From positions 1 to 11,840 of the forward strand of contig JASEIE010000093.1 in NCBI GenBank assembly GCA_030024065.1: a stretch of DNA of 11,840 bases, written 5' to 3'. The notes under the pieces are model-generated. The model did not search any database and was not told the origin of the DNA. It saw nothing but the letters and a program-made list of their open reading frames with translations. Origin of the DNA: Thermodesulfobacteriota bacterium (GTDB taxonomy: Bacteria; Desulfobacterota; BSN033; UBA1163). Positions 7,761 through 11,719 of this stretch are shown piece after piece; position 1 is the first letter of the stretch; each line of letters begins with the position of its first letter. The position numbers and the translations under genes are program-made.

Positions 7761-7802
7761 TAAAAGATCGTCTCCAAAATACAGTAGCAATGGTAAGTAT
7801 TT

Positions 7803-7868
7803 GTAGCCGCAGGCTTTAGCCTGCGAAAAATGGCTGTCAGACTAACGCAACCTAAAGGGTGTGGCTAC
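7803..7868. repeat. Double-hairpin palindromic element, copy 2
   Basis: This 66-base copy starts GTAGCC and ends GGCTAC. The first hairpin, CGCAGGCTTTAGCCTGCG at 7808-7825, has a perfect 8-bp stem with loop TT. The second (7846-7863) is degenerate, with one wobble and one mismatch. Its spacer is longer than in the other copies. It shares its left half with the copy at 11271 except for one base. Confidence 0.85.
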
Positions 7869-7890
7869 TTTGGTTTATGTGATTTTTAAA

Positions 7891-7953: not shown

Positions 7954-9405
7954 TTATTTCATCACCCCCACCTGAACATTCCTGAATCGGGCTGGCGCGG
8001 CGCCGTGCCCCACATGAGCCACCTGCCCGGGTTCTCCCTTCCCGCAATTGGGAGTTCCCCACATTTGCCAGTGATCCTTATTGCCAATCGCGTCACAGGA
8101 ATTCCAGAACCGGGGTGTAATCCCTGTATAGGTAGGGTTTTTTATCATCTCCCCGATTTTTCCGTTCTTAATCTCCCATCCGATCTCCGTGCCAAATTGG
8201 AAATTGATCCTCTTATCATCGATCGACCAGCTTCGATTGGTGCTTAAGAAAATACCTTCATCGGTATCAGCAATCATTCCCTCTAAGGTCCACTCCCCAG
8301 GCTCCAGATTGATATTGGTCATCCGGATGAGGGGAATCCTATTCCAGCCGTCCGCCCTCATCGTCCCGTTGCTCTCTTTTCCGAGATGGCAGGCTGTCTC
8401 TCTCGATGTGAGAAGATTAACCAGAATCCCCTCTGTGATGATGGGGACCCTCTGGGCTTGAATCCCCTCATCGTCGTAACCGAAAGTGCCCAATCCTCCC
8501 GGATAGGTTGCATCAGCCACAATATTGACGATCTCCGAACCATATCTGAAATGGCCCGCCATCTCCGGTTTTAAAAAACTGGTCCCTGCATAACTTGCCT
8601 CTGTCCCAAGGACTCGATCCAGTTCAATAGGATGGCCGATCGATTCATGGATCTGAAGAGCTAACTGGGAATTGTCCAGTATCAGGGTAGTGATTTTCGA
8701 TGGGCAGGGTTTGGCAGTAAGGAGTTGTGAGGCCTCTTCTGCTATCCTTTCGGCGTGATCCTGCAGCGTTAACGCCTCAATCCATTCAAATCCTTTTGTG
8801 GCAAAATTTCCTCTGAACGAGTTGGGGTAGGATCGCACCTGGACATCCGTACCTTCGATGGCTGTGGTGGAAATTCCTGCTCCGCACTCCACAATCTCCT
8901 GCTCAATGCAGGACCCTTCGGTGGAGGCAAACGTCTTCTCCGTTCTATACGACCCTATAAAAGCCTCTGAAATTTTTACCTTCTTATTTCTCCGGATAAT
9001 CTCATCGGACCTCAGGAGAAGATTCAGCTTTTTTTCAGAAGGGACTTCAAATGGATCGATAGAAATGGGAGTCTTATATTTATCCACCCTAAGAGGAGCG
9101 GGCGGATAAATAACCTCCTCCCCATTCGCTTTTGAACTTGCTCTGGCAATCTTCAATGCCTTTCCTAAAACCGCCTCCATCTCCCTCTTGTTCAATCCGG
9201 AACTGGAGGCAAATCCCCAGGCGCCTCGAAACAGAACCCTGATCCCGAAGCCGGAATCCTCATCATGGGTGAAGATTTCCACATTTCCATTCTTCACCCC
9301 GATCTCTTCGATCCGTCGATGGACAATCCGGATATCGGCATAGTCCACCTTTTTCAACTTGGCCAGATCGAGGATATTTTCGATGAGATTTCTCAATTCA
9401 ATCAC
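7954..9405 (-). CDS. tldD: TldD-type zinc metalloprotease
   Basis: TldD is the catalytic subunit of the TldD/TldE protease, which in E. coli processes microcin B17 and degrades unfolded peptides such as CcdA. The 483-residue protein carries the zinc motif HESIGH at 253-258 and the third ligand Cys454 in GTPNCGKGEPG, followed by the conserved end HVGHGAAPARFRNV. The length is typical. The longest frame starts with GTG at 9405, which overlaps the upstream DUF559 reading frame by 8 bases; a TTG three codons in (9396) has GGAG 8 bases upstream and may be the true start. No ATG fits. The gene follows pmbA on the same strand, with the DUF559 cassette between them. Cytoplasmic. All visible catalytic residues are intact. 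Confidence 0.94.
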   Translation of the reverse strand: MIELRNLIENILDLAKLKKVDYADIRIVHRRIEEIGVKNGNVEIFTHDEDSGFGIRVLFRGAWGFASSSGLNKREMEAVLGKALKIARASSKANGEEVIYPPAPLRVDKYKTPISIDPFEVPSEKKLNLLLRSDEIIRRNKKVKISEAFIGSYRTEKTFASTEGSCIEQEIVECGAGISTTAIEGTDVQVRSYPNSFRGNFATKGFEWIEALTLQDHAERIAEEASQLLTAKPCPSKITTLILDNSQLALQIHESIGHPIELDRVLGTEASYAGTSFLKPEMAGHFRYGSEIVNIVADATYPGGLGTFGYDDEGIQAQRVPIITEGILVNLLTSRETACHLGKESNGTMRADGWNRIPLIRMTNINLEPGEWTLEGMIADTDEGIFLSTNRSWSIDDKRINFQFGTEIGWEIKNGKIGEMIKNPTYTGITPRFWNSCDAIGNKDHWQMWGTPNCGKGEPGQVAHVGHGAAPARFRNVQVGVMK

Positions 9406-9772
9406 TCCATCTTATTATCTCCTCTACCCATGGGGGAGAGGAGTAAGGTGAGGGGGATTCTTTTCTTCTTAAATTCTTTTGAATTATTTCAAAAACTCCT
9501 TCAATATTGTTCAATATCTCATTATCGTTAAACCTCAAAATTTCTACACCCAACTTATACAGTTCTTTTTCCCTAACCTTGTCGCCATGTTTTCCTTTAT
9601 CTTCATAATGTTGACCGCCATCGGCCTCTATCCCAAGCCGATATTCAGGAGAGTAAAAATCTAATATGTAATTTCCTACAGAAAATTGTCTCCTGAATTT
9701 TGCTCCAGCCAACTGACGATTCCCCAATATTGACTATAGCTTCCTCTCTGCATCGGTCTGATTTCTCCGCAA
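9398..9772 (-). pseudogene. DUF559 (Vsr-like nuclease fold) gene interrupted by an amber codon
   Basis: The open part (109 codons from a TTG at 9727) gives NRQLAGAKFRRQFSVGNY, then FYSPEYRLGIEADGGQH and VEILRFNDNEILNNIEGVFE, the conserved core of DUF559, a small family with an endonuclease-like fold related to Vsr mismatch endonucleases. Upstream, the same frame continues past a TAG at 9734-9736 as ILRRNQTDAERKL, which fits the usual family N-terminus; the next residue is normally Trp, so TGG has become TAG by one change. A possible original start is the TTG at 9772, but the true start is uncertain. The last residues are encoded by the left flanking repeat, and the stop falls inside tldD. It may be dead, read through, or made as a shortened protein. 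Confidence 0.75.
9421..9456 (+). repeat. Left inverted repeat of the DUF559 cassette
   Basis: The left arm begins CCTCTACCCATGGGGGAGAG and ends GTGAGGGGG. It encodes the Pro/Ser-rich tail (SPSPYSSPPWVE) of the DUF559 protein on the minus strand and lies 15 bases from the tldD start. Confidence 0.85.
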
Positions 9773-9828
9773 TATTCTACACTTCTGAATATTTTTTCTT
9801 TTAATTTTATCCCCCTGAAGGTTTTGAC

Positions 9829-9864
9829 CCCCCTCACCCTTTCCCTCTCCCCCACGGGTAGAGG
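9829..9864 (-). repeat. Right inverted repeat of the DUF559 cassette
   Basis: Read on the minus strand it begins CCTCTACCCGTGGGGGAGAG and ends GTGAGGGGG, differing from the left arm at 5 positions. It lies 15 bases from the pmbA stop. Confidence 0.85.
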
Positions 9865-9879
9865 GAAATTATAGTAGGG

Positions 9880-11235
9880 TCATAACGCTGAGACTCCCGA
9901 GAAATTAAACCCATCCACCTTGATGGCAGGCGCCACTACCCCTGTGATGAAACGCCTTGAATAAACCGTCCCCTCGGAACAGATTCTTCGTTCTGTTGAG
10001 ATGGCGCTGACCCGTGAAAGGGCTTTTAGAACCGATTCGGTAAATCTCAGATTTTTGATCGGTCTCTTCAACTCGCCCTCTTCAATCAAAAAGGTCCCGC
10101 CCCGTGTCATGCCGGTTAACACTGCCTTCATCGGCTCGACCACATTGGTGTAATGAAAACGGGTGACATAGATTCCTTTTCGAACAGACCGGATCATCTC
10201 CTCCAGGGAAGATTCTCCTTCCTTCATAAATAAATTGATGGGGATAGGACCTTCCGTATTGGGAGCGATAAGACCATGGCCTGTAGAGTCCTTTCCATCC
10301 CGTCCTCCGGTGAAGGAGTCATAGGTTACCCTTTTGGCCACGCCTTCTTCAAAGAAGGTTACCCTTTGCTTTGGAATTCCTTCGAAATCGAAAGGAATCT
10401 GCAATCCTTCCGGATCAAGGCCATCATCATAGACCGTCACCTTCCCATCCACCATCTTCTTCCCGAACTCGTTACAGAAGAAACTTCTACCCTCCTGAAC
10501 GGCCATGGCATGAAAACCCAGATAGCCAAGAAAGGAGAGCAGTTCACTCACGGCATAGGGTTCTAAGATGACCTCGTACTCTCCGGGTTCGATCTGAACC
10601 GGCTCTCCTCTCAATGCCTTTCCAATCGCCTCCTTGGCTAAAGAGTCGATATCTAGATGGCCAGGATCCCTCGATACATAGCTGGCATAACCTGAACCCT
10701 TATCATCCTCGATGACCAGATGAAAGACGAGGTCCGAATATTTCTGATAGGTCTCCACTCCCAGAGAGTTGACCACTGTTAGTTCAACTGCTCCGTTCGA
10801 AAAGGCGCCTGAACCCCTCAACCCTTTCTCTTTTAACATTTTGAAGAGATCTTTGATGACTTTTACCTTTTTACTCGGCGTGAGATGCTCGATATTTTTA
10901 TTGAAGGTATCTATTTCTGGAATGGGCTTCGGTTGCGGTAAGGAAACGAACTCTTCGTTGGAATGTTGGATTCTGGCAAGGGAGATGGCCTTTCTGGTCA
11001 ACTCTTTCACGGAAGAACGGCTGAGGATATTCGTCGTGAGCACGGCAATCCTTTTATCCAGAACCACTCTGAGGATCAATGTCCCGTTCTTCTCCGCAAC
11101 ATGTTGATGGACCGAAGAGTTTGCAAACCGGGTGAGAGAAGAATCCTCTGTCAGGAGAAGGGCCTCTGTCTGATCAGCAGGAGATTCCTGAATGATTTTT
11201 TTCAGGAATGGTATCGATTTCTCTCTTCCGATCAT
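9880..11235 (-). CDS. pmbA: TldE/PmbA, non-catalytic partner of TldD
   Basis: This 451-residue protein is the TldE (PmbA) subunit that pairs with TldD in a protease complex. It aligns in layout with the family: an N-terminal domain to about residue 200, then the C-terminal domain with VILEPYAVSELLSFLGYLGF, the conserved TYDSFTGGRDGKDSTGHGL, and GMTRGGTFLIEEGEL near 377-391. The HExxH zinc motif of TldD is absent, as expected for TldE. It lies upstream of tldD on the same strand, so the two were probably one operon before the DUF559 cassette arrived. The ATG at 11235 follows a purine-rich GAGAGAAAG, a weak ribosome-binding site. Length is normal for the family. Confidence 0.93.
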   Translation of the reverse strand: MIGREKSIPFLKKIIQESPADQTEALLLTEDSSLTRFANSSVHQHVAEKNGTLILRVVLDKRIAVLTTNILSRSSVKELTRKAISLARIQHSNEEFVSLPQPKPIPEIDTFNKNIEHLTPSKKVKVIKDLFKMLKEKGLRGSGAFSNGAVELTVVNSLGVETYQKYSDLVFHLVIEDDKGSGYASYVSRDPGHLDIDSLAKEAIGKALRGEPVQIEPGEYEVILEPYAVSELLSFLGYLGFHAMAVQEGRSFFCNEFGKKMVDGKVTVYDDGLDPEGLQIPFDFEGIPKQRVTFFEEGVAKRVTYDSFTGGRDGKDSTGHGLIAPNTEGPIPINLFMKEGESSLEEMIRSVRKGIYVTRFHYTNVVEPMKAVLTGMTRGGTFLIEEGELKRPIKNLRFTESVLKALSRVSAISTERRICSEGTVYSRRFITGVVAPAIKVDGFNFSGVSAL

Positions 11236-11270
11236 CTTTCTCTCTTTTTCCCCCTTAGATAATCAGATGT

Positions 11271-11325
11271 GTAGCCGCAGGCTTAAGCCTGCGAATTTGG
11301 TTCGCAACCTAAAGGGTGCGGCTAC
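11271..11325. repeat. Double-hairpin palindromic element, copy 3
   Basis: This 55-base copy begins GTAGCCGC and ends GCGGCTAC (exact reverse complements). The first hairpin CGCAGGCTTAAGCCTGCG (11276-11293) is a perfect palindrome; the second (11303-11320) has one mismatch. It lies between pmbA and the IscU-like gene, and its right arm supplies the last codons and stop of the latter. Confidence 0.88.
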
Positions 11326-11719
11326 TGTCTTCTGGTTCCCTCCTCTTTCGATAATCCAATACCGCCGCCTTGATCGCCTTCTCCGCAAGAATGGAACAAT
11401 GGATTTTAGCTTGTGGTAGTCCACCCAATGCTTCAACAATGACTCGATCTGAAATATTGAGGGCTTCCTCAATCGTCTTCCCTTTAATCATCTCTGTGGT
11501 AATGCTCGATGAAGCAATGGCCGCACTGCATCCAAAAGTTAAGAAATTCGCATCGATGATCCGACCCGACTCAACTTTGATGAAGAGCCGCATGGTATCT
11601 CCGCAGACCGGATTCTGAGCCTCTCCCACCCCATCGGGATTCTCCATCTCGCCCATATTCCGTGGATGGTTGAAATGGTCCATGACGATGGGACTATATG
11701 GGCCGGTTGACTTTTCCAT
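11309..11719 (-). CDS. iscU: IscU/NifU-type iron-sulfur cluster scaffold
   Basis: This 136-residue cytoplasmic protein belongs to the IscU/NifU N-terminal family, which assembles Fe-S clusters from sulfur given by a cysteine desulfurase. The three scaffold cysteines are Cys39 (NPVCGD, with Asp41), Cys64 (FGCSAAIASSS) and Cys108 (KIHCSILAEKAI). The LPPVK motif that HscA chaperones bind in E. coli IscU reads LPQAK (101-105), suggesting chaperone-independent or altered handling. There is no NifU C-terminal domain. The stop and final residues (SRTL) come from the palindromic element, so the natural C-terminus has been altered. No ribosome-binding site is evident before the ATG at 11719, and repeats begin directly upstream. 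A desulfurase gene may lie beyond the window. nifU is an equally valid symbol. Confidence 0.9.
   Translation of the reverse strand: MEKSTGPYSPIVMDHFNHPRNMGEMENPDGVGEAQNPVCGDTMRLFIKVESGRIIDANFLTFGCSAAIASSSITTEMIKGKTIEEALNISDRVIVEALGGLPQAKIHCSILAEKAIKAAVLDYRKRREPEDSSRTL

Follow-up and report, generated by a model that had tools for sequence, protein, structure and literature searches.

REPs are the gene-less relatives of RAYT units, whose gene encodes a Y1 tyrosine transposase. Another family of dispersed repeats, the TM elements, formerly BoxC and PIT, has been described with 23 copies in MG1655 and in more than 260 genomes (PMC4666352, Holder et al. 2015). As far as the main text of that paper goes, TM elements form triplexes in vitro with E. 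coli oligonucleotides and are tied to genome instability; DMS footprinting gave no triplex in vivo, the authors found no mobility genes associated with the elements, and an earlier study of PIT elements is quoted as having detected neither promoter nor terminator activity. Five close inverted TM pairs are reported there, each made of one type A and one type B element, and by the coordinates given in the paper four of the five are inward-facing, 16-27 bp apart, and the fifth is outward-facing. The terms DUF559, ycjD and endonuclease are absent from its main text. BoxC/PIT triplex repeats have so far been orphans, being widespread, highly conserved and linked to genome instability, without a known function or route of spread.

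Here we describe a unit in which repeats of this kind bracket a gene of the DUF559 family. It was noticed in an 11,840-nucleotide stretch of Thermodesulfobacteriota DNA (the window) by a reading of the letters alone, called here the sequence-only reading, which took it for a gene enclosed by hairpin repeats, apparently inserted between pmbA and tldD, with a layout like that of REP palindromes around a RAYT gene; that the repeat is a triplex motif of BoxC/PIT type, and that the gene copy in the window is broken, was found afterwards. Both the repeat (BoxC/PIT/TM) and the protein family (DUF559) are already known; the finding is new because the two are joined, and no report joining them was found in the open-licence literature among the matches listed.

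The DUF559 Unit between pmbA and tldD

The unit lies, as first proposed, between a TldD-type metallopeptidase gene downstream (7954..9405, minus strand; PF19289, PF01523, PF19290) and a PmbA-type metallopeptidase gene upstream (9880..11235, minus strand; PF19289, PF01523), and DUF559 is the only gene inside it. The longest inverted repeat listed for the window has its arms at 9421-9456 and 9829-9864, which are reverse-complementary at 31/36 positions, exactly as the sequence-only reading had given them. The same reading described each repeat as a palindrome, and both do fold as hairpins (z of -3.2 and -3.8 against shuffles in single-stranded DNA folding), but the element is larger, consisting on each side of a hairpin, a short spacer and a purine tail in mirror order to the purine arm. 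In the copy at the 3' gene end (9419..9455, plus strand) the hairpin CTCCTCTACCC-ATG-GGGGAGAGGAG is followed by the spacer T and the gene-facing tail AAGGTGAGGGG, and this repeat doubles as coding sequence for part of the C-terminal tail of the open reading frame; at the 5' end (9830..9866, minus strand) the hairpin TCCCTCTACCC-GTG-GGGGAGAGGGA is followed by the spacer A and the gene-facing tail AGGGTGAGGGG. Dot-bracket folding cannot display a triplex, and the triplex rule was applied as a test on sequence: in a 9-nt version run over both strands of the 11.84 kb it matched at two places only, both with tails toward the DUF559 gene. No known RNA family reached the Rfam gathering score, and no terminal inverted repeats were recognised at the window unit beyond the hairpins. 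Another compound repeat, GTAGCCGCAGGCTTTAGCCTGCGAA ... CGCAACCTAAAGGGTGYGGCTACT, occurs in two copies, at 7799-7869 and 11267-11326, bracketing the whole tldD-DUF559-pmbA block.

The DUF559 reading frame (9398..9865, minus strand) matches PF04480 and is assigned a Vsr/EDxHD-type nuclease fold from a homologue. It is interrupted by an in-frame TAG at 9736-9734, upstream of the listed start TTG 9727, and the remaining open reading frame (9398..9727, minus strand; 109 aa), with the C-terminal tail SPSPYSSPPWVEE translated from the repeat, scores 80.4 bits against PF04480, compared with 102.4 bits for the whole frame with the stop read as X. Since the frame carries this TAG and what remains lacks the conserved first helices, the window copy is probably an inactive pseudogene; the enclosed gene of Vsr-like type announced by the sequence-only reading is thus present as a family member, in a broken copy. 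Compared with solved structures, the family profile matched NGO0050 (3HRL; E 4e-25) and gave a weak match (E 0.0058) to I-Bth0305I, a homing nuclease (3R3P), and a Foldseek search with a predicted model of the homologue P0013 (mean pLDDT 78) returned the same two structures (1.8e-6 and 8.9e-5) and more weakly Vsr (0.05); in this model the homologue has a Vsr-like nuclease fold. In an alignment of 26 DUF559 sequences, charged and other residues of the kind that a nuclease site would have (R, K, D, E, H) show no variation.

Unit Boundaries and Flanking Repeats in Other Genomes

Loci for comparison were chosen by similarity to the window protein or by PF04480 in selected genomes, and not at random. 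A scan of genome contigs gave 70 DUF559 loci, and 163 loci with a domain match were reduced to 127 non-redundant ones by leaving out any that scored below 60 bits, had short flanks or shared an identical core. By eye, most of the best 120 of 983 homologous proteins carry heads or tails translated from the repeat, such as SPSPQSSPPWVEE, PPHLNPLPxGER and GERVRVRG. An inverted-repeat score of at least 14 was found at 61/127 DUF559 loci versus 5/286 control ORFs from the same loci, and two-sided hairpins with a score of at least 9 at 57/127 versus 8/286; chance as the source of the flanking repeats is ruled out by these control ORFs and by shuffled comparisons.

In 35 units of repeat type 1, conservation drops just beyond the outer hairpin arms on both sides, with a median length of 428 bp, and the flanks are A/T-rich. 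Two loci from differently named groups (L003 and L009) are 85% identical over 430 bp bounded by the hairpins and have unlike flanks. In the genomes G001, G008 and G005, where type-1 repeats occur at 67, 54 and 32 places, three inward pairs of gene size (150-2000 bp) were counted by eye, and all three are DUF559 units, two of them the orthologous pmbA-tldD units; two more inward pairs in these genomes stand 36-37 bp apart and are gene-free. The unit and its boundaries count as shown, as does the association of DUF559 with the repeat across many bacterial groups. Several type-1 units from different groups (L009, L010, L014, L016, L018 and L022) have a motif like GGYTTCACAAAACT in their left flanks; at L022 it forms part of a terminal repeat whose frame shows a 9-bp duplication.

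The Triplex Grammar of Unit Ends

Unit ends follow a common order of pyrimidine arm, loop, purine arm, short spacer and purine tail, in which the tail is a mirror image of the purine arm, with G matched by G and A by either A or T, as the rule of an intrastrand purine-motif triplex has it. A gene-facing motif of this kind was present at both ends of 72/127 DUF559 loci versus 0/290 control ORFs, and at either end of 91/127 versus 17/290; the sequence-only reading had made its cassette idea depend on DUF559 genes being flanked by such repeats more often than random genes, and they are, for inverted repeats and triplex motifs alike. Motifs pointing outward stand at 23 upstream and 17 downstream ends of DUF559 loci, and shuffled upstream ends gave an inward motif in 1/127.

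At the level of sequence, hairpin and tail covary. A suitable hairpin is present at 209/254 ends, and the own tail fits the own arm (at least 0.88) in 147 of the 209, compared with 13.6% for tails swapped from ends with different arms and 3.7% for shuffled tails. Among the 130 ends that are not of type 1, the mirror rule applies in 78 and a parallel rule in 14, and repeat types unrelated in sequence, for example CCCCCTTTGG..CAAAGGGGGG..GGGGGGATTT, also follow the triplex rule. By group, the two-ended motif was found at 25/28 loci of the window-like clade, 26/40 of relatives, 8/12 of Omnitrophota and 6/11 from a further search; the rule has exceptions, and for loci L032-L070 (many Bacteroidaceae, with Alphaproteobacteria and others) the figure is 7/36, many of the ends there being hairpins that have no tail of this kind.

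Relationship to BoxC/PIT/TM Elements

Judged by sequence and layout, the window repeat is a member of the known BoxC/PIT/TM family. The architecture of that family, a pyrimidine arm, a loop, a purine arm, a second loop and a purine third strand in mirror order, is found at both ends of the window unit, and the family sequence CCCTC(G/T)CCC..GGGAGAGGG..GGGTGAGGG, as given in Table 1 of PMC4666352, fits the repeat at the 5' end of the window unit with one change in the outer arm. An inward TM pair reads, in these terms, as a DUF559 unit minus its gene.

E. coli K-12 has a DUF559 gene of its own, ycjD, between sapF and fabI. Its 3' end runs, by eye, into a decayed hairpin, and a BoxC copy, CCCTCGCCCCTCTGGGGAGAGGGTTAGGGTGAGGGG, stands about 170 bp further; from the position of fabI we take this copy to be no. 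9 of the published table. It is identical to an entry in Table 1 of PMC4666352, in which nos. 9, 16 and 19 have the same sequence. CCCTCGCCCCTCTGGGGAGAGGGTTAGGGTGAGGGG was matched in 5376/5426 E. coli genomes, at a median of 16 places (E up to 0.1). Element no. 19 of MG1655, between pstB and pstA, is polymorphic as an insertion: the site is 92 bp shorter in strains E2 and Ecol_743, and in its filled form the 8-bp direct repeat AACCGTGT stands on both sides of a 92-bp insertion with a solitary BoxC; 2089 of the 5375 genomes matching there cover at least 80% of the query. Strains differ also at tauD-hemB (no. 5), with no simple empty site in the three strains examined, and in Nissle the pair at the gcvP site is missing and the flanking sequence is different. 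The recurrence in many bacterial groups of a nuclease gene bracketed by BoxC-type repeats makes DUF559 a direct candidate for the factor, so far lacking, by which BoxC spreads, and E. coli K-12 has both ycjD and 23 repeats.

Proposed Mechanism

The reading that we prefer, and to which we assign a probability of roughly 0.55, is that of a compact mobile unit of about 430 bp, whose DUF559 nuclease most likely recognises and cuts the single-stranded triplex repeat, and of which the BoxC/PIT/TM elements are gene-less descendants. The unit would consist of a triplex-forming repeat, the DUF559 nuclease gene and a second, inverted triplex-forming repeat. On the strand exposed in replication, a unit end would fold into the hairpin with its third strand; the nuclease would bind this folded shape and nick there, both at its own ends and at gene-less copies; and host replication or repair would, by copying or joining, bring the unit, or repeats lacking the gene, to intergenic sites rich in A and T. 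BoxC/PIT/TM elements dispersed in genomes, those of E. coli included, would be gene-less descendants in the sense in which REPs are of RAYT units. Recognition, cleavage and mobilisation are the steps that we infer for the DUF559 protein. The interpretation given by the sequence-only reading is thus supported in part, and its proposal that DUF559 proteins mobilise or maintain the repeats keeps the rank of a hypothesis. A nuclease reading shape would explain the conservation at the level of shape, the inward orientation of both ends, the gene-less copies and pairs, the loss and gain of units and their exchange between lineages; taken alone it leaves the 8-9-bp duplications around some frames unexplained.

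More tentatively, and at somewhat less than even odds, DUF559 could represent an unrecognised class of mobile-element enzymes that read an intrastrand-triplex shape and not a fixed sequence, each lineage having its own covarying pair of hairpin and tail, with the BoxC/PIT repeats, described since the 1990s and present in E. coli and over 260 genomes, as gene-less offspring and ycjD as a relic or resident source in E. coli. Several observations taken up below count against mobility driven by DUF559, namely the repeats of the Omnitrophota genomes G099 and G100, which gave no DUF559 match, the larger frames with 8-9-bp duplications, the hairpins without tails and the correlation with Y1 transposases.

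Outer Frames and Flanking Duplications

Some units sit within larger frames, and these are a reason to consider that DUF559 and its repeats are the cargo of MITE-like non-autonomous transposons moved by a DDE transposase in trans, the repeats being fellow passengers or insertion targets. Terminal inverted repeats with direct duplications occur in three kinds: GRTTC(A/T)TCCGGCTT-type with 8-bp duplications (L192, L204, L222, L210, L215), GGTA(G/C)TGTCAAATA-type with 8-9-bp duplications (L162, L163, L173) and TAGGCTGTCACAAA-type with a 9-bp duplication (L022). In genome G091 a 502-bp DUF559 unit is present twice (L162 and L173), 99.8% identical and each copy with its own 8-9-bp direct repeat, which records recent movement as part of a larger frame. 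A loose criterion of terminal repeat and duplication holds for 38/127 units versus 3.5 for shuffled pairings, many of the 38 arising from matches that lie within hairpins or repeats; 8-mers shared beyond the hairpins occur in 7/35 type-1 units versus a shuffled-pair mean of 2.7 (95th percentile 5), a small excess; and the 8-bp direct repeat around the pstB-pstA insertion of E. coli points in the same direction. Against such cargo status, a frame is convincing by eye in only 8/127 units, so that a single universal outer frame is rejected, nothing outside the hairpins is well conserved across the 35 type-1 units, and L003 and L009 have the unit in common but not the TTTCACAAAATT stretch found ahead of it in L009. 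We regard this explanation as unlikely, although it is the strongest of the rivals.

The 8-9-bp duplications at some insertions look like transposase chemistry, and PD-(D/E)XK-type nucleases are not known to join DNA; either a staggered cut by the nuclease itself or a helper transposase may be the source of the duplications.

Presence, Absence and Exchange at Orthologous Sites

TldD is present in 39/59 relatives of G001 (Deltaproteobacteria bacterium CROMO_BS_46_3), and 19 of the 39 match at an identity of at least 62%. The pmbA-tldD junction was compared between the window and 14 genomes. A DUF559 unit occupies it in the window and in G001, G005 and G002 (the G002 contig ends in the upstream side of the unit); the unit of G001 (L001) is orthologous to that of the window, with 94% protein identity, and free of stops. 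The junction of G016 holds a lone hairpin, those of G008, G010 and G013 a different small gene, those of G009 and G011 only 23 bp, and those of G012, G003, G017, G014 and G006 other short sequence. Carriers and non-carriers of the unit interleave in the TldD tree, which is weakly supported (3/16 inner branches starred). At two further sites the unit of G008 is absent from five comparable relatives (G001, G005, G002, G009 and G006) and that of G013 from eleven, in which the gaps are near-empty or hold other repeat families. Presence and absence of the unit at orthologous sites are therefore observed at three loci, and the insert-shaped length difference that the sequence-only reading required at the pmbA-tldD gap is seen there and at the two other sites. 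Its ATTAT repeats, at 9414-9418 and 9868-9872, are indeed in place in the window, the only junction among those compared to have them on both sides; as a target-site duplication they are ruled out by the orthologous G001 unit, which does not have ATTAT at both of its edges.

At the pmbA-tldD site the DUF559 core has been exchanged between lineages. Synonymous divergence (dS) between the window and G001 is 0.25 in DUF559 versus 0.88 in tldD and 0.92 in pmbA; between G005 and G002 it is 0.19 versus 1.20 in tldD; and between G001 and G005 the order is reversed, with 1.32 in DUF559 versus 0.43 and 0.32 in the neighbouring genes. In a sliding comparison of the window with G001, identity climbs from 67-82% to 90-98% over about 300 bp, ending at the 3' hairpin. 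This exchange of the DUF559 core with flanks that stayed vertical is what would be expected if DUF559 were a free-standing homing endonuclease, with the uninterrupted repeat or allele as its target and the unit copied into cut repeat-bearing sites. The protein fits this to a degree: NGO0050 apart, its closest relative with a solved structure is I-Bth0305I, a homing nuclease, and a homing-endonuclease profile matches P0013 weakly (E 4e-4). In G016 the lone hairpin contains the 20-mer CTCTCCCCCATGGGTAGAGG of the 3' hairpin, a sequence that among the loci compared is confined to the pmbA-tldD gap in G001, G005 and G016, and for that reason this hairpin may be either a remnant of the unit or an older target; a leftover after loss is as good an account of it as a homing target. 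Units are, however, found at many unrelated sites, those of G008 and G013 lie where comparable relatives lack this repeat, and the 8-9-bp duplications of several insertions are not expected from homing, which makes this model doubtful, a little more so than that of transposon cargo.

Other small elements use the same gaps. Where G013 has its unit, several relatives (L287-L296) have other inverted-repeat families (GGAATAATGGAA / TTCCATTATTCC; CCAAACTCCAAGCACCAA / TTGGAGCTTGG), and the site therefore looks like a recurrent landing place. The pmbA-tldD gaps of G008, G010 and G013 (L072, L078, L081) contain a 23S-rRNA-intervening-sequence-type gene (PF05635 was tested for G010 and G013) flanked by inverted repeats of its own, AGTGACTAAAGTT-type and GCGCTATGCGC-type, and such units are a candidate for another class of gene plus inverted repeats. 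In the G008 gap (L072) a GIY-YIG ORF (PF01541) lies inside the 23S-rRNA-intervening-sequence-like gene, with the ends CCTGTTAAATA / TATTTAACAGGG; the G010 gene has no GIY-YIG ORF.

A Possible Resident Role for the Nuclease

The nuclease might instead be a resident enzyme, of a Vsr-like repair or restriction type, with hairpins that only insulate or stabilise its transcript. DUF559 proteins show weak matches to methyl-directed restriction and other nucleases, and on a plasmid of Synechocystis sp. B12 (L318, 899-1345) a DUF559 gene adjoins a BREX-type pglX and may serve a defence role there. The Caulobacter DUF559 protein VsrA is, by the account in PMC12907096, required for the SOS response in cells lacking a solitary methyltransferase. 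Gene-less copies, empty sites, exchange between lineages and a triplex grammar shared by unrelated repeats are all left unexplained by such a role, and the absence of promoter and terminator activity in PIT elements, as quoted in PMC4666352, speaks against hairpins of that function; we consider it improbable.

Repeat Numbers and Y1 Transposases

Repeat and enzyme tend to occur together in genomes. Type-1 repeats, counted with one mismatch allowed, are present in 18/18 genomes of DUF559 loci, at 2-77 copies (13 of the genomes have at least 17, and 4 have only two), and the reversed pattern gave 0-1 copies in the same genomes; G001 combines 67 copies with one DUF559 gene. The number of type-1 repeats correlates with that of DUF559 genes across 59 relatives of G001 (rho 0.73, uncorrected for phylogeny like the other correlations here), the DUF559 counts including some long multi-domain frames, and at least five type-1 copies occur in 18/23 genomes with DUF559 versus 5/36 without; the genomes compared are kin, so that these counts are not independent. 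Another DUF559 type has a second repeat of its own, which is dispersed in 5/7 genomes with that unit type and in 3/52 others, and is absent from genomes rich in type 1, such as G007, G029 and G014; G013 and G016 have the type-2 unit and, by the pattern used, no type-2 repeat. Three of the 59 relatives have type-1 repeats and no DUF559 match (G010 with 64, G041 with 42 and G012 with 20). In 35 Omnitrophota genomes the correlation is weak (rho 0.39, p 0.02): the repeat is found in 9/12 genomes having DUF559 versus 8/23 without, 3/12 with DUF559 have no type-1 repeat, and genomes with no DUF559 match include G099 with 279 repeats, partly in tandem arrays of about 43-53 bp spacing, G100 with 81, and G101, G102 and G106 with 17 each. 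Most of the genomes are drafts, so that DUF559 may seem to be missing where the assembly has a gap.

The least probable explanation is that the repeats are REPs for which Y1 tyrosine transposases encoded at other places in the genome provide the mobility, with DUF559 as a hitchhiker. In its favour, Y1_Tnp genes occur in 41/59 relatives in numbers correlated with repeat number (rho 0.55; partial 0.45 given DUF559), and G010 and G012 have repeats and Y1 genes with no DUF559 match. Against it, a repeat of type 1 or type 2 is present at 0/28 Y1 loci examined (8 from a search and 20 hand-picked out of a far larger set) versus 50/127 DUF559 loci with a type-1 repeat within 300 bp, and the correlation of repeat with DUF559 survives correction for Y1 transposases (partial 0.68). 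On the Y1 loci examined, a RAYT partnership is rejected; the RAYT-like layout seen in the sequence-only reading stands (one gene, inverted ends and often many gene-less repeats).

Significance and Comparison with Known Systems

If the preferred reading of a unit mobilised by its DUF559 nuclease is true, the units would form a class of mobile elements whose ends are defined by a triple-helical shape, intrastrand DNA triplexes would have a natural biological role, and the large DUF559 family would gain a function.

Several described systems resemble the unit in part. MITEs and IS-type elements are alike in their small size, and some DUF559 units have terminal inverted repeats with 8-9-bp duplications; in most of the units examined, however, no such frame was recognised. 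The EDxHD/Vsr-like homing endonuclease I-Bth0305I is similar in fold and, weakly, in profile; unlike homing of that type, the DUF559 unit has no intron that could be seen, brings its own flanking repeat and occupies many unrelated insertion sites. The likeness to REP/RAYT systems is one of architecture only, a gene flanked by inverted repeats that are also present as many gene-less copies, and the short inward DUF559-type repeat pairs without a gene recall REPINs; the unit encodes a Vsr-fold nuclease and not an HUH/Y1 transposase, and its ends are triplex motifs. Because the defining Y1 transposase is absent, the unit is not a member of the RAYT system. The BoxC/PIT/TM elements, as described in the main text of PMC4666352, have the sequence and triplex rule of the window repeat and form inverted A/B pairs, four of five inward, but no mobility gene was reported there, whereas here the motif brackets a nuclease gene in many bacterial groups. 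Taken together, both the enzyme superfamily and the kind of end set the DUF559 unit apart from the systems that it resembles.
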